Positions 895 through 32,590 of a stretch of 35,273 nt of DNA are shown in pieces. Each line of letters starts with the position of its first letter. The first letter of the stretch is position 1. The DNA is taken from positions 1 through 35,273 of the forward strand of contig CAMPBI010000004.1 in assembly GCA_946637545.1 (NCBI GenBank), read 5' to 3'. This DNA comes from an uncultured Clostridia bacterium (lineage in GTDB: Bacteria; Bacillota; Clostridia; Oscillospirales; Acutalibacteraceae). The translations under genes and the position numbers were made by a program. Below the pieces are notes generated by a model that saw only the letters and a program-made list of their open reading frames with translations, did not search any database and had not been told where the DNA came from.

Positions 895-1845
895 TTATTT
901 AATTAAATCGTGTTCTTTGATGTAGTTCACAACTTCGTCTACTGTGGTGAAAGCAAGTGCTACTGTGGTGTCTGCTGCGCCATAGTAGATTGCAATTTTG
1001 CCGCTTTCGGAATCGGCAAGAGCAGAGCACGGGAACACTACATTCGGCACGTCGCCGACTGTTTCGTACAGCTCGTGCGGAGCAAGCAAAAAGCTGTCTG
1101 CTCTGTGGAGCACCTTCCACGGCTCGTCCTTATCAAGAATTGCAGCGCCCATACTGTAAGTAAAGCCGTTGCAGCTTGTGAGCACGCCGTGATAAAACAT
1201 CAGCCAACCCTCGTCAATTTCAATCGGTGTAGGACCTGCGCCGATTTTTGTTTTTTCCCAGAACTGCTCGGGCTTCATAACAAATCTGTACTTGCCCCAG
1301 TATTCAAGGTCCTTGCTGCGCTCGATAAAAATGTCGCCGTACGGTGTGTGACCTCTGTCGCACGGACGAACAAGCAGCATAAATTCGCCGTTAATCTTTT
1401 TCGGGAAAAGCACGCCGTTTCGTGCAACGGGATAAGTTGCGTCCTCGAACTGCTCCCAGGTTTTGAAATCCTCTGTTGCGGCAATGCCGATTGTGGTGCC
1501 GTTAGGTGTAAGGTTAACCCATGAGAGATAATACTTACCCTCGATTTCGCAAAGGCGCGGGTCGTAGCCGTTAAAAATCACCTTGTCGTCAAGCTCCCAG
1601 TGAATCGCGTCCTTGCTGAATCCCGTTACAATATTGTGGTATCTTGTAACGTCGTCAACGCGGAATACGCCTGCAAATCCGTCGCCGTACGGAACAATCG
1701 CCGAATTAAAAATACTGTTTGCCCTGAAAAGATTATCCCTTGTGATAATCGGGTTTGCGTCGTATCGCCAAACGGGATACCTGTAACCCTCGGGCTTGTC
1801 CTGCCACGGAATGTTCGGAATTGCGTTTCCTATAATTTTTGCCAT
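895..1845 (-). CDS. GH130 family glycoside phosphorylase/hydrolase (mannoside phosphorylase-like)
   Basis: 316 aa, five-bladed-propeller style sequence (NSAIVPYGDGFAGVFRVDD, GYDPRLCEIEGKYYLSW, IGAGPTPIEIDEGWLMFYHGV, YYGAADTTVALAFTTVDEVVNYI). No signal peptide. Confidence 0.85.
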   Translation of the reverse strand: MAKIIGNAIPNIPWQDKPEGYRYPVWRYDANPIITRDNLFRANSIFNSAIVPYGDGFAGVFRVDDVTRYHNIVTGFSKDAIHWELDDKVIFNGYDPRLCEIEGKYYLSWVNLTPNGTTIGIAATEDFKTWEQFEDATYPVARNGVLFPKKINGEFMLLVRPCDRGHTPYGDIFIERSKDLEYWGKYRFVMKPEQFWEKTKIGAGPTPIEIDEGWLMFYHGVLTSCNGFTYSMGAAILDKDEPWKVLHRADSFLLAPHELYETVGDVPNVVFPCSALADSESGKIAIYYGAADTTVALAFTTVDEVVNYIKEHDLIK

Positions 1846-1861
1846 ATTTATACCTCCCAGG

Positions 1862-3325
1862 TTAGTTTGTCAACTTTATTCTTACAGTGTTTTCGCCCGC
1901 AGGTGTTTTGACACTGATAAGGCTTGCGCCGCTGTCGTATTTTTCGATAACGGAAAAATCACTGTCCGTGCCGAACGGCTTGTGAACATAAATAATACTT
2001 TCGCCCTCGCTGTCAGCTTTGAAAGTCAGCGAAAACTCGTTGTTTGCTCTGTCGAGCCCGTAACTGACTATTTCGCCTGCAACCGCAACGGGATGTGTTC
2101 TTGAGAGCATATTCATAAGCGGCGCGTCGAGGTCGTCGCCGTGGTAATCCCAGTACATCTGACCCCAGTGCATCTCGTCAAAGAAGTCAAGCAGCTCGTT
2201 TGCATGACCGAACCACGAGGTGTCGGTGTTGTCGCTGCAGCCGCCCCACTCACCCACAATGACGGGCACCTGAAGGCGAAGCTGCGTGTTGCGCATTTCG
2301 CCGAAAAAGGCTTTTACGCGGCTTGAATTTGCATACTGATAAAGCGGAGTGTCAACCGAAAAGTCATAGGCGTGCGGTCCGAAGCACTGATTTTTCTCGC
2401 GCTTGCCGTTCACACTGATGGGCGACGCCGACTGCTTAACACCGCTGTTGCAGATATAGCTTTGCTCCATCATAACAATACCGTTATCCGTAATTTCACG
2501 GATTGCGGCAGTAGTCTTGTTAAGAAACGGAGTATATTTTTCCTGGTCAAACTTTGTTTCAATAGCGTCAATGCGATAAACGGCGTCCCTGATAACATCG
2601 CCGCCGATACAGTCGAGCATATTTCTTGTATCACGCTTCAGGGCAGATTTGAGCAGTCTGCGGCGGTCAACCTTTTTGTTGAAAGCCACCGTTTTTGCCA
2701 CGCCGCCAACGAGGCGAGCAATCATTTTTTTGCTGTAAGAGCCGGGGAAAGGCTCGTTCATAAGGTCAAATCCGAACAGCGCAGGGCTGTCGCCATAGCG
2801 CTTTGCAAGCATCTGCCAAAGGTCGCAGTATCTGTCCTGCAAGCCCTTGCCGCAAACGGGTGTGTTGTTCCAGAAATTGTCAAACGAATTGCGCACCCAC
2901 TTGCCCATAAGATAACCGTCCGCCCAAACAAAAATCGGCATTCTCGGCTTTGCGCCGTCGGTAATAACCGCCCACTCGGGAGCGCCGTCGCCAACGCTTT
3001 TGCCGCCGTTGCCCGAGTACAAATCCTGGTGCATATCAAGCAAAATATAAACGCCGTATTTTTCGGCAAGTTCAAAGATTTTGTCAATTGATTTAAGATA
3101 ACTTTCGTTATACTGCTCCATTTGCGGCTCAAGATTCTGCCAGGTAATTGCAAGGCGGATAATGTCAAAGCCGCGTGCTCTGTACTTTTTGAAGAATTCC
3201 TCGTCAAGCTTGTAGCGGAATTCAGTTTGGTCGCGCAGCTTGTCGTCAATATTCATACCGTTCAGAATCCTTGTTCTGCCCTGCGAGTCCACAAAACGCA
3301 TTTTGCTGCTGATGATTTTTTCCAT
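1862..3325 (-). CDS. GH5-like glycoside hydrolase, cytosolic (no signal peptide)
   Basis: LDMHQDLYSGNGG...DGAPEW, LMNEPFP (acid/base Glu), VIVGEWGG (nucleophile Glu). 16 nt upstream of GH130 on the same strand. Confidence 0.8.
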   Translation of the reverse strand: MEKIISSKMRFVDSQGRTRILNGMNIDDKLRDQTEFRYKLDEEFFKKYRARGFDIIRLAITWQNLEPQMEQYNESYLKSIDKIFELAEKYGVYILLDMHQDLYSGNGGKSVGDGAPEWAVITDGAKPRMPIFVWADGYLMGKWVRNSFDNFWNNTPVCGKGLQDRYCDLWQMLAKRYGDSPALFGFDLMNEPFPGSYSKKMIARLVGGVAKTVAFNKKVDRRRLLKSALKRDTRNMLDCIGGDVIRDAVYRIDAIETKFDQEKYTPFLNKTTAAIREITDNGIVMMEQSYICNSGVKQSASPISVNGKREKNQCFGPHAYDFSVDTPLYQYANSSRVKAFFGEMRNTQLRLQVPVIVGEWGGCSDNTDTSWFGHANELLDFFDEMHWGQMYWDYHGDDLDAPLMNMLSRTHPVAVAGEIVSYGLDRANNEFSLTFKADSEGESIIYVHKPFGTDSDFSVIEKYDSGASLISVKTPAGENTVRIKLTN

Positions 3326-3348
3326 AAATTACTCCTCAAAACTGAAAA

Positions 3349-3387
3349 AAGACAGTTCGTACAACTTGATTATATACGAACTGTCTT
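3349..3387 (-). promoter_or_regulatory. Perfect 13-bp inverted repeat with a -10 box in its loop; candidate operator and terminator
   Basis: AAGACAGTTCGTA (3349-3361) and TACGAACTGTCTT (3375-3387). Minus strand continues into T residues. Confidence 0.7.
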
Positions 3388-3397
3388 ATTATTTCAA
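3369..3397 (-). promoter_or_regulatory. Sigma-A-type promoter for the GH5-GH130 operon
   Basis: Minus strand TTGAAA (3392-3397), 17-nt spacer, TATAAT (3369-3374). Confidence 0.7.
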
Positions 3398-3402
3398 CAG
3401 AT

Positions 3403-4719
3403 TTATTCAGTTATTTTAAACAGCGCTGCGCCGTGCGGTGCAACAGTTGCGGTAAGCGTGTTTTTCACAGCGCCTGAATTTTCGCCCTGCCATATGTCAA
3501 ACGCATTGTACGCCGTGTCGGGCATAAGTATTTGCGCAAGGTCAAATCTGATTTTCCGCTGCTTTGAGTCTGTATTGAAAAGCGCCACATACTTGCAGCC
3601 TCTGCCGTTTGCCGCCCACACAATTTTGCCCTTGCCGTTCTTTTCATCGCGAACAATCTCGCGCGCGCCGTAAGAATTTTGATTCATATTCATATACTCG
3701 GCGTTTGTCAGAAGCGAAAGGGTAAAATCATCGTTTTCGGGCAGATTTCCGCCAATCATAAGCGGACTTCTGAAAATTCCCCAGAGCGTCATAAGCGTGT
3801 AGTGCTCGGGCTTGGTGAACTGGCTCATACGGTTGTTCGGTCCGTAGTAGGTGCTGTTCTTGGCAATTCTGCCGATAGGCAGCATATCGCAGTCCGGAAA
3901 ATTGCCGGGTGCAGTTACACCCTCCCAGGTTTTGCAGCGGTCAAACATATCGTAAAGCTTGTCCCACCTGTCCCAGAAATCGCCTGTCATACGCCACATA
4001 TTTGCGTTTTTGCAAAGGTGGTCAGCCTTGTCGATAAGGGCAGGTCCGGGCGAAAGAGAAAGCACAATTTCTCTGCCGCAGGAGTCAATTGCGTTGCGGA
4101 GCATTTCAATTTCGTAATCCGCGGTGTACGGATTGTCCCAGCGGCGAAACTCTGTAACGGCAATGTCGTCGCACTTGATAAAATCAACGCCCCACTCGGC
4201 GTACATATTGATGATTGAGTTGTAATACTGCTGCGCGTCGGCATTATTTTTTACGCCGTACATATCGGTGTTCCACGAGCAGACGGAAAAGTGGTGCGCT
4301 ATGTCGCGGCAGGTGGCGTTGCTGCCGAGAATTTTGCAGTTTTGCGCCACTGCCTGACGCGGAACGCCACGCATAATATGAATTCCGAACTTGAGCCCGA
4401 GCGAATGCACATAATCGGCAATTTCAGTAAATCCCTTGCCGCCCTTTGCGCTGGGAAAACGGTTTGGCGCAGGCAAAAGTCTGCCGTATGCGTCCATTTC
4501 AAGCTCGGTAAAATTATTGTAGTCATTGCTGCAGGCATTCGGCTCGTACCACTGAATGTCGCACACAACATACTCCCAGCCGTACTGCTTTAAATGCTTT
4601 GCCATATAGTCGGCATTTTCGCGAAGCTGCTGTTCGTTTACCGCGGCACCGAAGCAGTCCCAGCTGTTCCATCCAAGCGGCGGCTTTTTTGCCCATTTTC
4701 TGAAATTTTCCATATGCAT
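3403..4719 (-). CDS. GH27-like alpha-galactosidase, cytosolic
   Basis: KKPPLGWNSWDCFGAAVNE, YVVCDIQWYEP, VDFIKCDDIAV, WRMTGDFWDRW; GH27/clan D signature. Confidence 0.82.
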   Translation of the reverse strand: MHMENFRKWAKKPPLGWNSWDCFGAAVNEQQLRENADYMAKHLKQYGWEYVVCDIQWYEPNACSNDYNNFTELEMDAYGRLLPAPNRFPSAKGGKGFTEIADYVHSLGLKFGIHIMRGVPRQAVAQNCKILGSNATCRDIAHHFSVCSWNTDMYGVKNNADAQQYYNSIINMYAEWGVDFIKCDDIAVTEFRRWDNPYTADYEIEMLRNAIDSCGREIVLSLSPGPALIDKADHLCKNANMWRMTGDFWDRWDKLYDMFDRCKTWEGVTAPGNFPDCDMLPIGRIAKNSTYYGPNNRMSQFTKPEHYTLMTLWGIFRSPLMIGGNLPENDDFTLSLLTNAEYMNMNQNSYGAREIVRDEKNGKGKIVWAANGRGCKYVALFNTDSKQRKIRFDLAQILMPDTAYNAFDIWQGENSGAVKNTLTATVAPHGAALFKITE

Positions 4720-11294: not shown

Positions 11295-12635
11295 TTAATC
11301 AATTTGTGTGTAGAACACATCAAGAACGGTCTGCATCAGGAAATCCTCGTCGGGATAAAACTCGGCGTGGACAACGCCTGCATAATCGGGATTAGGGTCA
11401 AGCGAGCCCTTCATTTCGCCCTTGAGTGTGATGCCGTCAAAGTCGCGGATGTTCTTTTGCAGGAGCATTGACGCCATATAGGTGGCGTTTGACAGTGTAA
11501 GATTTGTTTTGGAATAATTCTTTGATGTGTTGTAAAGCTTTGACACCGTTGAAAAGTCACGCACAACTGCAGGCAGAGCCTGTGTGGTGTACGCCCTGAC
11601 ATACTGAACCTGCCTGTCAGTACGGTTGAGCGACGCTTCAACACTGTCGGTATCACGGCGACGTACATATACCTCCGCCATATCTCCCTTGAGCGTTACG
11701 GGGTCACCCACACTGATTCCGTAATCGGGAAAAGGATAAAGCGAATTTGGAATTTCAACTCCGCCGATTGCGTCGTTGAGCGGAGCGATACCGTCGAGGT
11801 CAAGCACAAAGTATTTCTGAATCGGAACATTATTAAGTATTCTGCTTATTGCGTCGACTGTGTTCTGACAGCTGAGCGTGTCGCCGTCGGCATAAGCGTA
11901 CGCCAGACAAAGCTGCGTTTGCTTGCTTCCGAGCAGCAATCCTGTGTCCGCGCTGTACATATCAACATCGACCATTGTGTCACGCGGGATTGCAATAACC
12001 TTTGTTTTGCCCGTTTCAACATCAACGGCAACAACTATATCGGCATCGGCTGCGCCGACAAAGTCGGTGTTGTCCGAGGTTTCAAGCTGGCGCTGGTCAA
12101 CGCCGATGAATGCGAGCGAAACGATGTTTTCGTTATACTTATACTTATGTCCGCCGTACTCGATGATTTCCTCGTACTTTGTGTCCTCGGTAACTGTGGG
12201 CATAATGTCCTTTTTGCCCTGGTAGCGCAAAACAAGAAATGTGCCGAGCACCGTGCCGATTGCAAGAAGCAGAATCAAAAGAATGATTATTGCAACCTTG
12301 AGCGCCGCGGGCAGTTTTTTCTTTTTCTTTTTGCTGCTTGACGACGAATGATGGTGCGAGCCCGAATGTCTGTGGCTTGAAGAGTGGCTGTGATGATGGT
12401 GGTGATGATGGTGGTGCTGTACTTGCTCCGCCTTTTCACGTTCTGCCTCTGCCACAGCGTCCTGATAATTCCGTATGTCCTCTTTCAGTTCGGTGTATTC
12501 GTCCGCCTTTGGCTCTGCTTGCGGCAGCTCAATTTCAGTTTCTTTAATTTCAAAATCTGCGCCGCTATTGCCTATGCTATTTAAAATGTCGTCATTGCCC
12601 ATTCCCGAAAGATTGGGGTCAATTCGTCTGTTCAT
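11295..12635 (-). CDS. LytR-CpsA-Psr (LCP) family cell-wall glycopolymer ligase/attenuator with His/Ser/Lys-rich N-terminal cytoplasmic region
   Basis: Single TM (LPAALKVAIIILLILLLAIGTVLGTFLVL), IAIPRDTMVDV, AIGGVEI, YVRRRDTDSVEASLNRTDRQVQYVRA. Confidence 0.88.
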   Translation of the reverse strand: MNRRIDPNLSGMGNDDILNSIGNSGADFEIKETEIELPQAEPKADEYTELKEDIRNYQDAVAEAEREKAEQVQHHHHHHHHHSHSSSHRHSGSHHHSSSSSKKKKKKLPAALKVAIIILLILLLAIGTVLGTFLVLRYQGKKDIMPTVTEDTKYEEIIEYGGHKYKYNENIVSLAFIGVDQRQLETSDNTDFVGAADADIVVAVDVETGKTKVIAIPRDTMVDVDMYSADTGLLLGSKQTQLCLAYAYADGDTLSCQNTVDAISRILNNVPIQKYFVLDLDGIAPLNDAIGGVEIPNSLYPFPDYGISVGDPVTLKGDMAEVYVRRRDTDSVEASLNRTDRQVQYVRAYTTQALPAVVRDFSTVSKLYNTSKNYSKTNLTLSNATYMASMLLQKNIRDFDGITLKGEMKGSLDPNPDYAGVVHAEFYPDEDFLMQTVLDVFYTQID

Positions 12636-13422
12636 CCTTAATTAACACTCCGCATACTAAATATCTGTTGCTTCTCTGATTTGTGAAGCAGGTTGACAGC
12701 ACAACAATATTATCGTTTGTTGTGAGCTGTCTGCCAAGTGGGGTCCTAACATTTTTATTATTCGTTTCAGGCGACTGAATCATCTCAAGAAATTCGGCAT
12801 AAACCTGCGTGTCGTTAAAATCAAAGCAGTTGAGAAGATGCCTGTCGTCAAACTTGAACGCCGACACAATCTGATAAGTCAGCTTGCGGTGCGGCATATA
12901 AATATAAAATTTGTCGTGCTTTTTGAAAAAATCGGACGATTCAAAATTGTGCAGCGTGGTGAACATTGTGTCGCCGTAGCCGTTATGCCCGTAAAGCACT
13001 GTAACGCGGTCAGAAAAGGTGGCAGTGTTTCCAAGTTCCGTATATACCGCGCCGCTTGCGCTCCAGTTTTTTGTATACGCATCATGCTTCAGGTAAAAAT
13101 AATCGTCGCTTTCGTGCTGCAAAACGGGATAGTCAACCTTTGTGCCGGGAACTTTCAGCCAGGCAAAAATATCATTGTTCTTTGCTTTAAGCGATTTGAA
13201 GTCAATCGGATTATTCGCCAGCTTTTCATCAACTACCTGTGTTGTTGCTGCAATGCTCGACGCAACCTCGTCACTTTGTTGCGCGCTGTACTGTCCGTAA
13301 AGATAGTAGCCAAGGTATACTGACCCTGCAATTACGAGCAGAATAATCAAAATAAGGATAATTATTCTACCCTTTTTTCTGCCGTCCTCTTCTTCATTTG
13401 CTCTTTTAATTTCGTCACTCAT
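12619..13422 (-). CDS. Class B sortase
   Basis: N-terminal TM; LKVPGTKVDYPVLQ, VTVLYGHNGYGD (His), VVLSTCF (Cys), NRYLVCGVL (Arg). Overlaps the LCP start by 17 nt. Confidence 0.87.
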   Translation of the reverse strand: MSDEIKRANEEEDGRKKGRIIILILIILLVIAGSVYLGYYLYGQYSAQQSDEVASSIAATTQVVDEKLANNPIDFKSLKAKNNDIFAWLKVPGTKVDYPVLQHESDDYFYLKHDAYTKNWSASGAVYTELGNTATFSDRVTVLYGHNGYGDTMFTTLHNFESSDFFKKHDKFYIYMPHRKLTYQIVSAFKFDDRHLLNCFDFNDTQVYAEFLEMIQSPETNNKNVRTPLGRQLTTNDNIVVLSTCFTNQRSNRYLVCGVLIKDEQTN

Positions 13423-24107: not shown

Positions 24108-24135
24108 AAAGGCTGACGCTTATGCGTCAGCCTTT
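24108..24135. terminator. Terminator hairpin overlapping the 3' end of the HAD gene
   Basis: AAAGGCTGACGC-TTAT-GCGTCAGCCTTT, 12-bp stem; the stop codon of the minus-strand gene is in the loop. Confidence 0.75.
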
Positions 24136-24602
24136 TCATTCATTTCAATAACATATTCAGCGGCTTCGCGCACAGCGCCTTCGCCGCCTTTTTTATTAAG
24201 AATAACGTCAACCTTCGGCTGAATCTGCTTCATAGCGTCGTTCGGGCAGAAGGTCAGACCGACAAGGTCCATCATCTTAAGGTCGTTGATGTCGTCGCCG
24301 AGGTACGCCACCTCGCTGTAATCAATGCCTGTGCGCTCGAGAATTTCTGCAAGCACCTCGGGCTTATTTTTTGCGCCCTGATGGAATTCGTCAATCTTGA
24401 GCTTTGTCGCACGGCGTTCAAGCAGGGGCGTGTTTTCGCTACTGATGATACCGGTAAGAACGCCGCTGTTTCGCAACATTTCAAAGCCCATACCGTCGCG
24501 CGCGTTAAACTTTTTCCACTCGTTGCCGAGATTGTCATAATACATACCGCCGTCGGTCATACAACCGTCGCAATCGGTAATAAACAACTTGATTTTAGCC
24601 AT
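24120..24602 (-). CDS. KdsC-like HAD phosphatase (candidate nonulosonate-9-phosphate phosphatase)
   Basis: LFITDCDGCMTDGGMYY, NARDGMGFEMLRNSGV, GIISSENTPLLERRA, VAYLGDDINDLKMM. Confidence 0.85.
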   Translation of the reverse strand: MAKIKLFITDCDGCMTDGGMYYDNLGNEWKKFNARDGMGFEMLRNSGVLTGIISSENTPLLERRATKLKIDEFHQGAKNKPEVLAEILERTGIDYSEVAYLGDDINDLKMMDLVGLTFCPNDAMKQIQPKVDVILNKKGGEGAVREAAEYVIEMNEKADA

Positions 24603-24604
24603 AA

Positions 24605-25288
24605 TTAACCCTGTTTTGCATTAAGCAGATTTTCAATAATAATCCAGTCGGACGGCTCGTCAATTTCAAAATAAGTTTCCTCGGGCATAACTACTGCACC
24701 GATTTTGCCTGAAATTCTGTTACCGGTGTCGAGAAGTCGCTCCTTTGACGTGATGTAAAACGCGCCGTTTTCAACAAGATAGCCGTCGAACTCCTGGCGT
24801 CTCGGGCGGTGAAAATGGTCGTAGTTTGCGGATTTTACGCCGCCGCTGCCATCCTCTTCCCAGATGAAACGCTTTTGCTCAACGAGTGAGATAATACTGT
24901 CATAGTCGCCGTATTTGTCAAAGCCCTGCTGAATATCGTCTGCTGTCAGCAGCGGACTTGTCGCCTGAACAAGAACGATATTTTCAAAGTCGTAATTGTT
25001 TGCAAACTCGAGCATTGCAGATTCTGTTGACGCTGTGTCGTTTGCAGTTTCGGCGCTGCGCGAGATAACCTCGACCTTTTCGCAGCCTTCGCCGCTGTAT
25101 GTGGAGGCAACCTCCCTGATTCTGTCCGAATCAGTCGAAACGTAAACCTTGTCGATTGACTTGCACTTTGCGGCAGCCTCGATTGTCCATAGAACAAGAG
25201 GCTTGCCTGCGATTGGCTTGATGTTTTTAAACGGGATGGACTTGCTTCCGCCCCTTACGGGGATGAAAGCGACATTTTTGTTTGCCAT
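24605..25288 (-). CDS. neuA: CMP-nonulosonate cytidylyltransferase (NeuA-like)
   Basis: AFIPVRGGSKSIPFKNIKPIAGKPLVLWTIEAA, VYVSTDSDRI, VLVQATSPL. Confidence 0.85.
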   Translation of the reverse strand: MANKNVAFIPVRGGSKSIPFKNIKPIAGKPLVLWTIEAAAKCKSIDKVYVSTDSDRIREVASTYSGEGCEKVEVISRSAETANDTASTESAMLEFANNYDFENIVLVQATSPLLTADDIQQGFDKYGDYDSIISLVEQKRFIWEEDGSGGVKSANYDHFHRPRRQEFDGYLVENGAFYITSKERLLDTGNRISGKIGAVVMPEETYFEIDEPSDWIIIENLLNAKQG

Positions 25289-26178: not shown

Positions 26179-29100
26179 TTAGTTAATTTCATTTAACTTA
26201 TTATTAGCATAATTATACTCTATTTCCACTTTATTTGTAAATACATTTTTTACAAATAATTTGAAAACGCCGTCTGCAAGAGCAGGTTTTTCAATGTACT
26301 CCTTGTATTCCTCGCGCGCTTTTTCATATTCTTCGCGTTCGTTGAGCACTTTCATACGGTAGTAAACGGTGAGCGGGTCGCGCTTGAGAATCGAAAAATC
26401 AATGAGCATTAGCTCGGAATACTTTTTGTTTTCGTACAGATATTTGAGCAGCGACATACGCCTTGCGTTTGCAACAAACGGCTTGAGATAGTCATAAAGT
26501 CGCTTTTCTCTGACAAGGTCCGTCTTGCCGTTTTTGCCCACGATGAAGGTCAGATAATTTGCAATGTGCTCAATCGCCTTTTGCTGTCTGCCTGTTTTGA
26601 GGCAGTGCAGCGCGGCATAGTATTCATAAGCCTCCTTCGCCTCGATGTTGTCCATAGGATACTTTTCGATTTCGGAGAACCTGTGGTTTTTATAGAGCCA
26701 GTCAAAATAGTAGTCGAGTAGGATTTTGTCCTCTTCGGTCTTTTTGATGTTCTCGGGGTCGGTGAAAAAGTCGTGCTGAATTTCGGCAAATTTCTTTTCA
26801 ACAAGCGGCGCTATGTCCGTTTTGTCGCCAACCTTGAGGTTGTCCATAATAGCGGTGCATTCGGACAAATCAAGCATATTGCCCATACAGCGATTGATGT
26901 AGCCGTACTCCTGCATAAGCGTGTTGAATTTGACAAAGTTTTCCTTCCACGCAAGATACTTTTTATCCTTAAGATTGTAAAGCTTTGCGGTGTCGAGATA
27001 GTTTTCAAAATCCTGATAGCCGAGCTCAAAGAAGCCTGCATAGCGCTTGTCGGGGATAATAAGCTTGTCGTAAACCATTTCAAAAATGTCCACGATGTGA
27101 GGCGAGCAGGGCTCGTCGTTGTTGACAAATTCACGCTTTTTGAAATCCTCGTCAACGTAACTGAATTCGAGCGGCTTGTCCATAACATCTCTGAAATCAA
27201 CAAGCACTCCACTGCCTGCAAGCTCGTCATAAGCGTCGCGGACGCGGTTTGTTCTGATGTCGAAAACATCGTCCGAATCAAATCCGCCGATAAGCATAAG
27301 CGGCATATTCATCGCCATCGCGTCAATAAATGCGGTGCTCCACATTGTAATCAGCGCGTCGTAGTCGCCGAGAATGTCCTCAAGAATATAGTTTTCGTTA
27401 ATCAGCACCAGATTTTCGGGCACGCGGTCAAAGTAGTTGTAAAGATGCTCCGAAACGGTGTGAATACTCTTGACAGAATTGTCAAGCAGGTAACGCGGCT
27501 TGATGTGAATTTCCTTGTCCGGATTAGTTTCAGCCATATTTATGAGCAAATCCGCAAGCTGCTTTTTACCCTTGTCGCCGCAGGGGTATGCGCCCTGCTC
27601 GATGAAAAGAATCTTTTTGATTTCGTCGTTTGAAATAACCTTTTTGCGATTTTCAACGAGCGAGTCGTACTGCGGATTACCTGCCGCAATCATATTGTAG
27701 CGCAGGTAGTTTGCCGCAAATTCCCTGAACTTGTTTTCGCCGATTGTGATAACAGCGTCGCTTTCAACACGCATTGTAATTGACGAAAACAGAGTTGAAA
27801 AGGTGTAAATAAACAGTCCGCGCTTGTTGATTTCGCGGTAAAGGCGTGCGAATCTGCGGAACTTAATCGGCGACGAAACAACAAAATCGTATTCGCCGAG
27901 CGATTTGTAATCAAAGCTGTTGATTGAAATAATGTTCGGATTGCCTGCGAACATAAGATTGTTGACCTCGTCGTCAACATCTCTGATTAAAATTTTGTAC
28001 AGATGTCCGCGCTTTTCAAGCTCCTTGAGAAGATTGACGAACACATAATTTGTCGAATCGTAGCAGGCAATGAACAGGATTTTAAGCGGCATATTCATAT
28101 TTCTGATATGCTGCTGAATATTGTCGACCTTGCTGTCAACACGGCGGATTTCCACACGGCTGTCGTCAAAGGTGTCGGTGATTTTGCCGCCGTCGTCAAG
28201 CAGGACAATCTTTTTGTAGCCCGCCTTGCAAAGCTCCGCAACAAGCGACTTTGAGTAAAATTCGGTATCGACAAAAATTGTCTGCTCGCTGTCCGTCTGT
28301 GTTTCGAGCATTTTTCTGTACACAGGCTGTCCTGCGCTGAAATTCACAATCTCGTCAAACTTGCAAAAGCCGAGGTTTCGTCTGTACTCACGGTCATAGA
28401 TGTCAACCGCGTTTTCGCCGAACAGTTTTTTGTTTACAGCCTCGCTGAAGGTGTACATAGTCGGCGGCATATGGGTGAGATAACGGATGCCCTTGCAGGC
28501 GTTATCAAAAATCATTTTCTGCTTTTCGTAGTAGTTGCCAAAAAGGAAAACGTTGTATTTTTCGGTGTCGATGCTTTCAAGATATTCCTTTACGGTCTTT
28601 GCAAGCGGACCCTTGCCCATCTCGTTTCCGACGTGAACAAGAATACTTTTTTTGTCGGATTTCGGCTGATAAAGCGTTTCGGGCTTTTTGCCGCCGAAAA
28701 TTATGTCAACAACGCGCTTTGTTGAGCCGCCGTCGTCCTTGTAAGCAAATTTTTTAAGAAACTTGCTGTATTTTTCGTCGTAGCTGTACTCGCCCCTGTT
28801 GATATCCTCAAGGCTTTTAACGACCTCCTGCTCGGTGTCGCAAAGTCTGCCGGGAACCTCGTCAAGCGGGAATAAAAATCCGCGCTCGCCCTCGTACTGC
28901 TCCCTGTCGTAAGTGAAGAAAATAATCGGTCTTTTTGTGCAGAGGTAGTCAAAGAAAACTGACGAATAGTCGGTGATGAGCACGTCTGCCGCTGCAAGCA
29001 CCTTGTTGGTTTCAAAATCGTCAAACAAAAACAGGTCGGTGATGTTTTTATTATCCTTGAAATACGCAATCAGATTGCTGTGAGCCTTGAAAAACATCAC

Positions 29101-29916
29101 ATAGTTTTCGGGCATATTGTCAACGATATGCTCAATGTAGCCGCATATTTCGTCAGAGTTGTCGATGTGCTTTTTAGCATACGACATCTCGCTGCGGAAG
29201 GTCGGAGCATAGAGAATTATCTTTTTGCCGTCAAGCGACGCGCCCGTTTTTTCTTCAAGGCGTTTAATCATTTCTGCCCTGTCGGTGTTTGCAACAAGGT
29301 CAATTCGCGGATAGCCCTCTTCAATAATATTGCCGCGAAACGCATCTCTGACATCGTAATGGTCCATCAGAATGTCGGTTGTATAGCGGTTTGGCATAAC
29401 AAGATAATCGGCGCAAAGGAAGTTGCGCTGTGCGCTCATAATCGGGCGGCGGTTTGCAGTTTTGTCAAACTTGCCGAGTCCTTTGAGCGGCGTACCGTGC
29501 CAGGTATTGATGTAAATCTGGTCGTCCTTTTTGATGTAATACGACGGGAACGCCGCATTATTCACAAGATACTGCGCTGTGCAAAGCGCCTTGAGCGCCT
29601 CGTTTGAGCCGTCCATAACAAAACGCACTCTGTCGTGGTGGGCATACTTTGCAACATCGGGGTATTCAAGAATAGACTTGTCCTTGATAATCCAGATGTG
29701 CTTGAGGTGCGAATACTCGGGATTTTCCATAAGATGAAGAAAAATTGCATACGGATTTCCCGCAAGAATCTTGTTAGCATAAGCCTGATACAAAACAGTA
29801 TTCGGCTCAACCTTGCACTCCTTGTAATAGTTGATATATGTGACCTTTTTCGGCTTGTCGACAAAATTCTGATTAACAAACTTTTTGCCTTTTTTCACCA
29901 AACTCTTTTTGTCCAT
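26179..29916 (-). CDS. Multidomain protein: N-terminal TagF-like (CDP-glycerol) polyol-phosphate transferase, central GT-B-like domain, C-terminal helical region
   Basis: Residues 1 to ~410: INTWHGTPLKGLG, IIEEGYPRIDLV, ILYAPTFRSEM, LITDYSSVFFDYL. Central: KILFIACYDSTNYVFVNLLKELEKRGH, IHIKPRYLLDNSV. C-terminal helical repeats. Confidence 0.85.
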   Translation of the reverse strand: MDKKSLVKKGKKFVNQNFVDKPKKVTYINYYKECKVEPNTVLYQAYANKILAGNPYAIFLHLMENPEYSHLKHIWIIKDKSILEYPDVAKYAHHDRVRFVMDGSNEALKALCTAQYLVNNAAFPSYYIKKDDQIYINTWHGTPLKGLGKFDKTANRRPIMSAQRNFLCADYLVMPNRYTTDILMDHYDVRDAFRGNIIEEGYPRIDLVANTDRAEMIKRLEEKTGASLDGKKIILYAPTFRSEMSYAKKHIDNSDEICGYIEHIVDNMPENYVMFFKAHSNLIAYFKDNKNITDLFLFDDFETNKVLAAADVLITDYSSVFFDYLCTKRPIIFFTYDREQYEGERGFLFPLDEVPGRLCDTEQEVVKSLEDINRGEYSYDEKYSKFLKKFAYKDDGGSTKRVVDIIFGGKKPETLYQPKSDKKSILVHVGNEMGKGPLAKTVKEYLESIDTEKYNVFLFGNYYEKQKMIFDNACKGIRYLTHMPPTMYTFSEAVNKKLFGENAVDIYDREYRRNLGFCKFDEIVNFSAGQPVYRKMLETQTDSEQTIFVDTEFYSKSLVAELCKAGYKKIVLLDDGGKITDTFDDSRVEIRRVDSKVDNIQQHIRNMNMPLKILFIACYDSTNYVFVNLLKELEKRGHLYKILIRDVDDEVNNLMFAGNPNIISINSFDYKSLGEYDFVVSSPIKFRRFARLYREINKRGLFIYTFSTLFSSITMRVESDAVITIGENKFREFAANYLRYNMIAAGNPQYDSLVENRKKVISNDEIKKILFIEQGAYPCGDKGKKQLADLLINMAETNPDKEIHIKPRYLLDNSVKSIHTVSEHLYNYFDRVPENLVLINENYILEDILGDYDALITMWSTAFIDAMAMNMPLMLIGGFDSDDVFDIRTNRVRDAYDELAGSGVLVDFRDVMDKPLEFSYVDEDFKKREFVNNDEPCSPHIVDIFEMVYDKLIIPDKRYAGFFELGYQDFENYLDTAKLYNLKDKKYLAWKENFVKFNTLMQEYGYINRCMGNMLDLSECTAIMDNLKVGDKTDIAPLVEKKFAEIQHDFFTDPENIKKTEEDKILLDYYFDWLYKNHRFSEIEKYPMDNIEAKEAYEYYAALHCLKTGRQQKAIEHIANYLTFIVGKNGKTDLVREKRLYDYLKPFVANARRMSLLKYLYENKKYSELMLIDFSILKRDPLTVYYRMKVLNEREEYEKAREEYKEYIEKPALADGVFKLFVKNVFTNKVEIEYNYANNKLNEIN

Positions 29917-29933: not shown

Positions 29934-31178
29934 TTATTTAATCAATCTCTGTGCGACGCGTCTGCTGGCGTTGCCGTCGTCGAGATAATTGAATTTGTCG
30001 TTGAATTTTTTGTATACCTCGCCGTACTCAAAGTCGTTCGACAGCTTTTTAACGGCGTCAATCAGCGAGTTTTCGTCCTGCACAATCGGTCCGGGCAGCT
30101 CGGCAAGGTCAATGTAAAAGCCGCGCATCTCGTTTTTATACAGCTCAAAATCGTACATAAAGTAAACTATCGGGCGTTTCAAAATTGCATAGTCAAAGAA
30201 AACTGACGAGTAGTCGGTAATCAGCAAGTCCGAAACGATGTAAAGCTCGTTGATGTCGTCAAGCGAGGATACATTGTAAATAAAGCCCTCATACTTGTCA
30301 AAGTTAAAAGTGTTTGAAATAAAATAGTGTGCTCTGAATAAAATTACATACTCGTCGCCGAGCTCTCGCTGAAGGTGGTCAAAGTCAACCTCTGTTTTGT
30401 ACACATAGCCCGTGCCGACCTGATGCTGATTGTCGCGCCAGGTGGGAGCATAAAGGATAACCTTTTTGTCCCCGGGCAAACCGAGCTCTGACTTAATGCG
30501 AGTCACATCGTCATCTGTGTAGTTGATGAGAAAATCGTTTCGCGGATAGCCCTCTTCAACTATTATATCCTCTTTGCCAAGGTCTTTAAGCGCAAAGGCA
30601 GAAATAAATTTTTCGCTCGCGAATGCCGAAGGCGAAAGAAAATAGGTGAACTTTTTAGCGTCGATAATATATTTTTTGTTCTGCTCGTCGAGCGTGTAAA
30701 TTTCGTTATTCGAGCGCTCAATATCCAAACCGAGCCTTTTGAGCGGAGTGCCGTGCCAGGTCTGAATGAAAATCTGATTTTTGCTCGGGTATCTGTGCAC
30801 TGCGGCGCGGTGGTTGCACACCCAGTATTTTGCCGTGGCAAACGCAATTTCGCAGTCCTTTGACGCCTGCTTTACAATTGTGGTGTTGCGGTTTTTAAGC
30901 AAAAAGTCATAGTTCTGCGGATTGACAAAGGTCCACACAAATTTGTAGTCCTTGTAATCGTCGCAGTTTACCATATACTCATAAATTGCGCGGGGCGAGT
31001 CGGCGTACTTTTTGCCCGTAAAGCACGAAAAGACAATGAGCTTGTCGTCAATTCCTCTGCCAAGTCCGCGCAGCTTGTAACGCCACAGGCGAAAAAGGTA
31101 AACTGCTTTTCTGATGAATTTTCGCAAAAACAGGCTTTTCTTTGAAATGCCCGTAAGTAGTGTTCTGAACTTTTTCAT
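29934..31178 (-). CDS. TagF-like CDP-glycerol:polyglycerophosphate transferase
   Basis: FIQTWHGTPLKRLGLDIERSN, VEEGYPRNDFLI, VILYAPTWRDNQ, DLLITDYSSVFFDYAILKRPIVYFMYD, LPGPIV. Confidence 0.9.
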   Translation of the reverse strand: MKKFRTLLTGISKKSLFLRKFIRKAVYLFRLWRYKLRGLGRGIDDKLIVFSCFTGKKYADSPRAIYEYMVNCDDYKDYKFVWTFVNPQNYDFLLKNRNTTIVKQASKDCEIAFATAKYWVCNHRAAVHRYPSKNQIFIQTWHGTPLKRLGLDIERSNNEIYTLDEQNKKYIIDAKKFTYFLSPSAFASEKFISAFALKDLGKEDIIVEEGYPRNDFLINYTDDDVTRIKSELGLPGDKKVILYAPTWRDNQHQVGTGYVYKTEVDFDHLQRELGDEYVILFRAHYFISNTFNFDKYEGFIYNVSSLDDINELYIVSDLLITDYSSVFFDYAILKRPIVYFMYDFELYKNEMRGFYIDLAELPGPIVQDENSLIDAVKKLSNDFEYGEVYKKFNDKFNYLDDGNASRRVAQRLIK

Positions 31179-31210: not shown

Positions 31211-31239
31211 ATTATATCATTAATCACCATTAGTTGCAA
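31211..31239 (-). promoter_or_regulatory. Putative promoter for the five-gene teichoic/NulO operon
   Basis: Minus strand TTGCAA (31234-31239), 17-nt spacer, TATAAT (31211-31216). Confidence 0.65.
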
Positions 31240-31288: not shown

Positions 31289-31316
31289 GAAAAAACGGTC
31301 GGACCTGCCGACCGTA
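31289..31316 (-). terminator. Rho-independent terminator of the alpha/beta hydrolase gene
   Basis: Minus strand ACGGTCGG-CAGGT-CCGACCGT followed by TTTTTT. Confidence 0.85.
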
Positions 31317-31321
31317 AGGGA

Positions 31322-32506
31322 TTATTTTGTTTTGACCTTTTTTGCCGCCGTCCATTTGCCGTAGTATTTTACGCCGCCGAGCGTGCGGTAAGTTCTGACG
31401 CGGACATAGTAAACTTTTTTCGCCTTCAGCTTTTTAACTGTTTTTGAGGTTGTTGCCGACTTTGCAACAAGAACGGCTTTTGTGGTCTTTTTGGTGAATT
31501 TTTTGCTTGTGGAATACTGCACCTGATAGCCCGTCACGCCGCCTGTTTTTGTCCACACGGCTTTAAAGCTCTTTTTGCCCGGGGTGACCTTTGACAGCTT
31601 TGTGTTTTTGAGATAGATTTTTCTTTTGAAATCCTGCCACTCGGTGTTCGTTTTGAGCTCGGGCGATTTGCCTACAAAAGCCTTGCCTGCCGCAGTGTTG
31701 CCCTGGAGCTTGTAGTCGAACCACGCAATCATATACGGGTGGGTCTGATAGATGCTGTCGGCGTGCTCAACGCCCTTTTTCCTTGCGACGAAAACATCGT
31801 TTTTAATCTTTGATTTTGCGGGCAGAATGCTTGTTTCAAGCGGACAGATGAAGGCGTTGTCCGTTGCGCCCGTTCCCGCAAGAATAAGCGTGGGGAGCGA
31901 CACAAGCGACGCGTCGTAAGGGCAGTTCTGAAGCGGTGACGCCGCAAGCTCCGGAGTGGGCAGCGAGCAGGCGTAAATTGCCTTGTAGTGCTTAAGATTT
32001 GCGTAATTGCCCTTGCTCGCCATATTCAGCGAACAGGTCGCGCCCTGCGAATGTCCTGCAAGTCCGACCTTGTCGATATTTACCTTTTTGTAAAGGCGGT
32101 GATTCTTGTCGCTGTTAAAGCCGATAAGAGCCGTCATTCCCGCGTCCATACTTGCGCCCGTGCCTGTGTTCTGGTCGGTATTTGTAACGCAGATAAAGCC
32201 GTAGGACGACGCTTTTTTAAGATACACCTCGGTTTCGGGCGTTTTTTCATAGTTTGAGCCCGTGCCGTTGCAGTACAGAATAACCGGGCGAGCCGAGAGC
32301 TTTGCAATATCCGACGGGTACCACACCTTGTAGGTGAAATCGTTGTCCTCAACCGTAAAGGTAAAGCTGCTCACCTTGTGAGCGCCCGACTTTGAATACT
32401 TATCCCACACGGGTGTGGTGCTTTTTGCAAACGCAAAAAACGGAACAACCGTTGCCGTAAATGCCATAACAAGTGCCATAGCAAGTGACAGTGCTTTCTT
32501 TTTCAT
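31322..32506 (-). CDS. Secreted alpha/beta hydrolase (chlorophyllase/PET-hydrolase-like fold) with C-terminal FnIII-like basic domain
   Basis: Signal peptide MKKKALSLAMALVMAFTATVVPFFAFA; VILYCNGTGSNYEKT; GLAGHSQGATCS nucleophile elbow; GYQVQYSTSKKFTKK...YYVRVRTYRTLGGVKYYGKWTAAKKVK. Confidence 0.8.
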   Translation of the reverse strand: MKKKALSLAMALVMAFTATVVPFFAFAKSTTPVWDKYSKSGAHKVSSFTFTVEDNDFTYKVWYPSDIAKLSARPVILYCNGTGSNYEKTPETEVYLKKASSYGFICVTNTDQNTGTGASMDAGMTALIGFNSDKNHRLYKKVNIDKVGLAGHSQGATCSLNMASKGNYANLKHYKAIYACSLPTPELAASPLQNCPYDASLVSLPTLILAGTGATDNAFICPLETSILPAKSKIKNDVFVARKKGVEHADSIYQTHPYMIAWFDYKLQGNTAAGKAFVGKSPELKTNTEWQDFKRKIYLKNTKLSKVTPGKKSFKAVWTKTGGVTGYQVQYSTSKKFTKKTTKAVLVAKSATTSKTVKKLKAKKVYYVRVRTYRTLGGVKYYGKWTAAKKVKTK

Positions 32507-32590
32507 ATAAAACTCCCCTTTTGTATAAAATGTTTCTGTCCCCATTGTAACGCATATTGATAAAAAAATAAAGCCCTATTTTAAAAAATT

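Follow-up and report, generated by a model that had tools for sequence, protein, structure and literature searches.

A TagF-NeuE-family fusion protein encoded with CMP-nonulosonate supply genes is a likely bifunctional glycopolymer synthase in an uncultured Clostridia bacterium

We analyzed a 35,273-nucleotide stretch of DNA (the window) from an uncultured Clostridia bacterium of gut or rumen type (contig CAMPBI010000004.1, assembly GCA_946637545.1), which carries a compact minus-strand cluster encoding, in order, a stand-alone TagF/TarF-type enzyme, a fusion protein, NeuB, NeuA and a haloacid dehalogenase (HAD)-type phosphatase. The fusion is the second gene, 17 bp downstream of the stand-alone TagF-type gene and directly upstream of the neuB, neuA and HAD phosphatase genes, with a gap of about 13 bp to neuB; a first-pass annotation made from the sequence alone had already noted its place directly before neuB-neuA-HAD. 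The 1245-aa open reading frame that it proposed at 26179-29916 is genuine once its strand is corrected to minus, the plus-strand frame across these positions being riddled with stops. Judged by profile and sequence comparison, the fusion has four parts, namely a TagF-type domain, a single Rossmann lobe, a DUF6716 domain and a helical tail. These parts and the other genes of the cluster are as follows.

26179..29916, minus strand: fusion protein, 1245 aa, conserved at full length in loci L006 and L007
28696..29814, minus strand: TagF-type (CDP-glycerol) glycerophosphotransferase domain, residues 35-407 (PF04464, E 7e-81, full profile)
28087..28692, minus strand: single Rossmann-like lobe, residues 409-610, similar to the N-lobe of CgaT, the galactosyltransferase of Cps3D
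27058..28086, minus strand: NeuE-family (DUF6716) putative CMP-ulosonate transferase domain, residues 611-953 (PF20471)
26182..27057, minus strand: helical, weakly tetratricopeptide repeat (TPR)-like tail, residues 954-1245, the fastest-evolving segment
25302..26165, minus strand: NeuB-type nonulosonate (9-phosphate) synthase, 287 aa (PF03102, E 1e-66)
24605..25288, minus strand: NeuA-type CMP-nonulosonate synthetase, 227 aa (PF02348)
24120..24602, minus strand: KdsC-type HAD phosphatase, nearest among curated models to Kdn-9-phosphate phosphatase (NF058599, TIGR01670)
29934..31178, minus strand: separate TagF/TarF-type glycerophosphotransferase of 414 aa, a candidate for the primer or linker step (PF04464, 368 bits)

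An identical five-gene order with a full-length fusion was found in uncultured Clostridiales RUG741 (L006) and Oscillospiraceae SIG610 (L007), where the GT2 and htpG genes flanking one side of the cluster are also kept. Among the three genomes, all four segments of the fusion showed nonsynonymous divergence (dN) of 0.08-0.37 and saturated synonymous divergence (dS >1.1). Because these relatives keep both the full-length fusion and the gene order, with dN far below dS, the fusion is neither an assembly artefact nor a chance joining. Four more genomes of this genus were searched and lack the central domain, whose distribution is therefore patchy.

The first-pass annotation had read a complete TagF-like catalytic signature into the residues up to about 410. 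We located all of its motifs, WHGTPLK at 139, EGYPR at 200, YAPT at 236 and DYSS at 316, within the PF04464 match, and the histidine of a KAHS motif in the fusion aligns with TagF RMHY. The closest solved relatives found by phmmer were Cps3D of Actinobacillus pleuropneumoniae (PDB 8qoy; E 7e-73, over fusion residues 26-547) and TagF of Staphylococcus epidermidis (3l7i; E 4e-40). CDP-glycerol supply is possible in the organism because TagD/GCT is present on contig C86 of its genome (TIGR01518, 188.4 bits versus an equivalog cut-off of 165.4).

The center of the protein had been described as one GT-B-like region ending in a C-lobe. The supposed C-lobe matched DUF6716 above the cut-off, and the center as a whole proved to be two things, the single lobe of residues 409-610 and a complete transferase-sized domain, residues 611-953. 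Searched alone, the latter matched PF20471 (DUF6716, "putative glycosyltransferase") with 44.2 bits versus a cut-off of 27. Conserved positions include Q164, KPR at 196-198 and ITxxST at 246-251 (domain numbering), and both motifs are kept across the DUF6716 family. One of 14 control genomes carried DUF6716, namely that of E. coli, apparently the type strain of NZ_CP033092.2. This member (805507-806655; L112:10508-11656), annotated as DUF6716 and scoring 56.6 bits against the model, was identified through the family model and not through gene context. The locus order is neuD-neuB-neuA-neuC-DUF6716-neuS (neuD, neuA and neuS named from product and order), and because the gene is placed between neuC and neuS we take it to be NeuE of the K1 capsule cluster.

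A family profile built without E. coli NeuE aligned to NeuE over 323 columns (E 9e-15). Between the window-type profile and one of alphaproteobacterial DUF6716 proteins, a set into which one plasmid match had led, the alignment covered 305 columns (E 2.5e-20). Direct pairwise comparison of the window domain with NeuE gave 21% identity over 140 residues only, so the link runs via family profiles. On this profile evidence, the central domain belongs to the NeuE family, and the whole of Pfam DUF6716 can be read as that family. Nothing in the window domain corresponds to the C-terminal segment of NeuE past residue ~330, described as a polyisoprenoid-recognition or membrane-anchor segment (PMC2408645). 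In the nucleotide-binding lobe, the family showed weak profile similarity to two beta-Kdo transferases, KpsC at E 2e-5 and KpsS at E 1e-4; the corresponding Pfam match to PF05159 (E 0.008) was under the cut-off and not full length. Profile searches of the PDB with the domain returned nothing under E 0.9, and the viral contigs and phages scanned held no relative. Three weak genome matches (L032, L034, L108) were discarded because what they picked up were TagF proteins or unrelated glycosyltransferases (GTs), and L010 was set aside as a leucine-rich-repeat type surface protein.

The first-pass annotation had made the central domain a candidate transferase using a CMP-activated nonulosonic acid (NulO), and gene neighborhoods agree. 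It had named two findings that would speak against this, a match of the domain to a nucleotide-diphosphate-sugar GT family with unrelated donors and homologues that routinely lack neuA/neuB; both were looked for and neither was seen. Counting genes inside the fetched stretch around each locus as neighbors, we found CMP-ulosonate genes at all 10 confident DUF6716 loci, which span several phyla (L006, L007, L018, L025-L030, L011 and E. coli, the window clade taken together). The Maritalea locus carries neuA, a GT42-type sialyltransferase gene, an AGE epimerase gene and neuB; the Pseudorhodobacter, Tritonibacter and Marinovum loci are likewise near such genes; and at the Rhizobium, Sinorhizobium and Nonomuraea loci they were found by BLAST of the neighbors, the actinomycete Nonomuraea locus lying near a NeuA-NeuB fusion. 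Weaker DUF6716 matches (L031, L035, L036, L038, L039, L107 and L109) had the same kind of neighbors. By comparison, NeuB or KdsA was found at 0 of 31 control loci with a TagF domain, taken from further genomes within the order, several of whose stretches end at contig ends, and two of these loci had weak NeuA-type matches only. A Fisher test of 9/9 versus 0/31 gave p ~4e-9, a value to be read with loci that are not fully independent and taxa that differ between the sets.

The donor class had to be widened beyond NulO because of a homologue in genome G125, from another family of the same order (L011:9332-14452). Here the NeuE-like domain shares its chain with a helical segment and an MptE/DUF115-type domain, not with TagF, and is followed by genes for a cytidylyltransferase, KdsA (402 bits versus a cut-off of 314) and a KpsF/KdsD isomerase, a set of the CMP-Kdo type. 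Altogether, membership of the NeuE family and these neighborhoods, with the weak likeness to KpsC and KpsS as a further pointer, give good support to CMP-ulosonates (NulO or Kdo) as the donor class of the domain, with NulO as the predicted donor in the window operon. The G125 locus itself presents a Kdo-type pathway within a surface polysaccharide cluster of a Gram-positive Firmicute. Three further loci were recorded beside it. A Rhizobium plasmid (L028:8001-13993) carries a pair of distinct DUF6716-type genes close to neuA and neuB, which suggests two successive NulO transfers; a complete kdsA/kdsB/kdsC/kdsD-like set lies ~5 kb from a weak DUF6716 match in genome G463 of the same phylum (L039:1392-4512); and a cytidylyltransferase sharing 50% identity with the one of G125, in the same-family genome G916 (L033:11695-12366), stands beside an aldolase-like gene and a fusion that contains a TagF domain but no DUF6716 domain, possibly another CMP-sugar-acid pathway.

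The supply genes of the window operon bear on which sugar is made. NeuB, with its start taken as in L006 and L007, lacks an SAF domain; its nearest relatives are sialic acid synthases (E 1e-26 to the sialic acid synthetase of PDB 6ncs). NeuA matched PpNeuA (9t4z; E 3e-50) and CMAS (1qwj; E 3e-35), with Kdo-type KdsB far worse, and by these similarities is of the sialic acid type, not the Kdo type. The HAD phosphatase scored 164.4 bits against NF058599, just under the cut-off of 180, and 152 bits against TIGR01670, over its subfamily cut-off. Neither a NeuC-type UDP-GlcNAc 2-epimerase (PF02350) nor an AGE epimerase (PF07221) was found in the organism's own genome, which is 92% complete. Because both epimerases are missing from it and the phosphatase is nearest to Kdn-9-phosphate phosphatase, our best guess, which we hold with a slight preference, is that the sugar is Kdn made from mannose-6-phosphate. 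Elsewhere in the window (895-4719), genes for a GH130 mannooligosaccharide phosphorylase, a GH5 enzyme and an alpha-galactosidase form a mannan-use cluster, a potential source of mannose phosphate, from which Kdn is presumed to be made.

Lobe 409-610 alone reached no significance by phmmer. Aligned by hhalign to the corresponding Cps3D fragment, it gave a probability of 81%, E 1.3e-5 and a score of 38.7 over 105 columns, with 40 shuffles scoring at most 21.7; the stretch common to both is roughly YxREyRRnLGxxxFD. The C-lobe of CgaT does not follow; the NeuE-like domain starts there instead, so that only an N-lobe-like piece of the galactosyltransferase is represented. A second active GT in this lobe was considered and dropped, as no C-lobe follows and the segment evolves fast. 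A 1140-aa paralogue on contig C39 of the same genome (L101:5-3427) has two TagF domains joined by a similar single Rossmann lobe. The tail gave a marginal TPR_14 match (E 0.067) and helices of pLDDT 50-77 in an AlphaFold2 (AF2) model. Identity among the three genomes was 82-85% for the TagF domain, 77-87% for the DUF6716 domain, 54-62% for the lobe and 55-65% for the tail. The TagF and NeuE-like domains are thus alike in conservation and the lobe and tail diverge faster, as would be expected if two active catalytic domains were held by a less constrained scaffold.

In its architecture the fusion parallels, at the level of sequence, a Cps3D-type TagF/GT-B/TPR capsule polymerase with the sugar transferase exchanged. 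Like Cps3D and Cps7D, it joins a TagF-like glycerol-phosphate (GroP) transferase to a second transferase, and it adds a helical module with marginal likeness to TPR. Unlike them, its second transferase is of the NeuE family (CMP-ulosonate type) and not a UDP-Gal transferase, its helical module is C-terminal, and its host is Gram-positive (Oscillospiraceae-like). The NeuE-like domain aligns with E. coli K1 NeuE at family level over the whole length, and both genes lie near neuB and neuA. NeuE, however, is a separate protein with a C-terminal membrane anchor that works beside a polysialyltransferase, whereas the window domain is fused to TagF, has no anchor and has no NeuS nearby. We found no report of a TagF-NeuE fusion in the open-access literature.

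We consider it likely that the fusion is a bifunctional synthase of a surface glycopolymer, combining a TagF domain with a NulO-transferring domain of the NeuE family. In the mechanism we propose, NeuB would make a NulO-9-phosphate, the HAD phosphatase would strip the phosphate and NeuA would activate the NulO with CMP. The TagF domain would transfer GroP from CDP-glycerol and the NeuE-family domain would transfer NulO, most likely Kdn, from CMP-NulO, both acting on one growing chain, for which the stand-alone upstream TagF most likely makes an oligo(GroP) primer. The data establish what the domains are, their family membership, a conserved operon, a CDP-glycerol pathway in the genome and the tie between the family and CMP-ulosonate genes; the catalysis of the NeuE-like domain, Kdn as the sugar, action on the same chain and the order of addition are what we infer here. 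One polymer is suggested because the TagF-NeuE fusion, the separate TagF gene and the operon occur together, and the earlier proposal that the central domain acts on the polymer built by the TagF domain gains further support from the Cps3D-type architecture. The likeliest product would be an alternating or mixed GroP/NulO polymer, that is, a teichoic-acid-like chain with a sialic-acid-type sugar, and the surface polymer probably contains both components.

Strict alternation of GroP and NulO is plausible, and is the leading reading because in Cps3D and Cps7D, whose modules are TagF, GT-B and TPR, GroP alternates with Gal (PMC5974469, PMC11666461). The data would also agree with priming or with side-chain addition. 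The fuller proposal, in which one polypeptide works as an alternating copolymerase, drawing by turns on CDP-glycerol and a CMP-nonulosonate (probably CMP-Kdn), and NeuE represents a CMP-ulosonate transferase family, we hold tentatively, at somewhat less than an even chance. In the Neisseria meningitidis W/Y polymerases, as cited in PMC11666461, a hexosyl and a CMP-sialic acid transferase in one chain likewise make an alternating polymer; judged from the literature, their partner is a hexose versus GroP here and their sialyltransferase is of another family. The Streptomyces teichulosonic acids are Gal-Kdn cell-wall polymers with Kdn in the repeat (PMC11481543). They too are Gram-positive wall polymers with Kdn, but are described as phosphate-free, and no TagF fusion was seen for them. 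Within the window, a gene for a LytR-CpsA-Psr-family ligase adjoins a sortase gene ~11 kb from the operon (11295-13422); both products are candidate wall-attachment enzymes and, though not linked to the operon, are consistent with wall anchoring.

Several points weigh against this interpretation. The D/E-D/E-G and HP motifs of classic GT-B sialyltransferases (GT38, GT52, GT80) (PMC2169525) are absent from the window domain. AF2 models built from three sequences reached pLDDT of 48 for residues 411-1245 and 42 for residues 611-953, leaving the fold unconfirmed. A demonstration of NeuE transferase activity was not found in the open-access literature, and an in vivo study concluded that polysialic acid synthesis does not strictly require NeuE, for which it suggested a role in structure or export (PMC2408645); Andreishcheva and Vann, as cited in PMC2169525, found NeuE to be needed for de novo synthesis. 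The sequence holds no proof of alternation. At 92% genome completeness the absence of NeuC and AGE epimerases, the two ManNAc sources looked for, is not final, and other enzymes using CMP-NulO may be encoded elsewhere in the genome; the window, the part that was scanned for them, holds none.

Among the alternatives, the one that survives best, though we regard it as unlikely, is a transition or priming role, in which a lipid-linked primer or the end of a chain receives a single NulO residue, or a few, from the NeuE-like domain and TagF then makes or lengthens a block of plain poly(GroP), or the two act in the reverse order, leaving NulO as a linker or cap. NeuE has been called a putative sialyltransferase that primes polysialic acid in K1 (PMC5517516), K1 and K5 are thought to employ a single transition transferase (PMC11666461), and the operon has a second, separate TagF enzyme (NF041712 TarF, 317 bits, under the equivalog cut-off of 550) like the CpsA/TarF-type primers of App3/7 and of wall teichoic acid (WTA). 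Yet a three-gene CMP-NulO supply is costly for one linker residue per chain, fused domains alternate in Cps3D-type enzymes, and no separate long-chain polymerase beyond the TagF-type genes was seen in the window.

Rather less probable is side-chain decoration, with TagF making poly(GroP) and the NeuE-like domain attaching NulO to its glycerol residues, for which the model is TarM, which decorates with GlcNAc. Joint conservation would be expected of a backbone maker and a decorator in one chain as well, and lobe 409-610 could hold the backbone, but WTA decorators are usually separate enzymes. Cps3D, the nearest architecture, moreover puts its sugar into the backbone (PMC5974469).

A non-catalytic NeuE-like scaffold coupling the TagF polymerase to export or the membrane, as Steenbergen and Vimr proposed for NeuE, appears improbable, although overexpression of NeuS suppresses the neuE defect (PMC2408645) and the classic sialyltransferase motifs are missing: the window domain is without the anchor segment, its KPR and ITxxST motifs are kept family-wide, it is as conserved as the TagF catalytic domain, and CMP-sugar supply genes accompany it even where no polysialyltransferase adjoins. 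Least probable of all is a UDP- or GDP-sugar donor with NeuB-NeuA-HAD serving an enzyme elsewhere, since the permissiveness of GT-B folds and weak Foldseek matches to GT-B/NDP-sugar enzymes (TM ~0.1, from the poor and unreliable 411-1245 model) stand against the ten-of-ten association with CMP-ulosonate genes and the finding that no NDP-sugar GT family matched significantly in Pfam, NCBIfam or the PDB.

The function of NeuE in E. coli K1, primer transferase or export scaffold, has been disputed for decades, and a TagF-fused NeuE domain together with a Kdo-type locus without NeuS offers a non-pathogen system for a direct test of its catalysis. A bifunctional TagF-NeuE synthase would add a CMP-ulosonate donor to those of the Cps3D-type polymerases, and leads one to expect, in the surface polymer of an anaerobic Gram-positive, a sialic-acid-type sugar that could shape contact with host, phage and sialidases. 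Litschko et al. left open whether homologues of TagF-like fusion polymerases serve Gram-positive wall polymer synthesis (PMC5974469); the fusion is a concrete candidate. If alternating copolymerization holds, the wall or capsule polymer of a Gram-positive gut bacterium would contain GroP-NulO repeats.

Candidate regulatory elements, each a consensus match only, border the operon.

31211..31239, minus strand: candidate operon promoter, TTGCAA-17-TATAAT, extended -10
31295-31315: terminator-like hairpin of the gene upstream of the operon
24108..24135, no strand assigned: candidate terminator hairpin with a 12-bp stem, operon end

Just upstream of the operon (window 31322-32545) lies a gene for a putatively secreted protein with a C-terminal fibronectin type III (Fn3)-like repeat and the look of an alpha/beta hydrolase. 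Its counterpart is conserved just upstream of the L007 operon (L007:6519-7751), where a second TagF-type gene precedes it.

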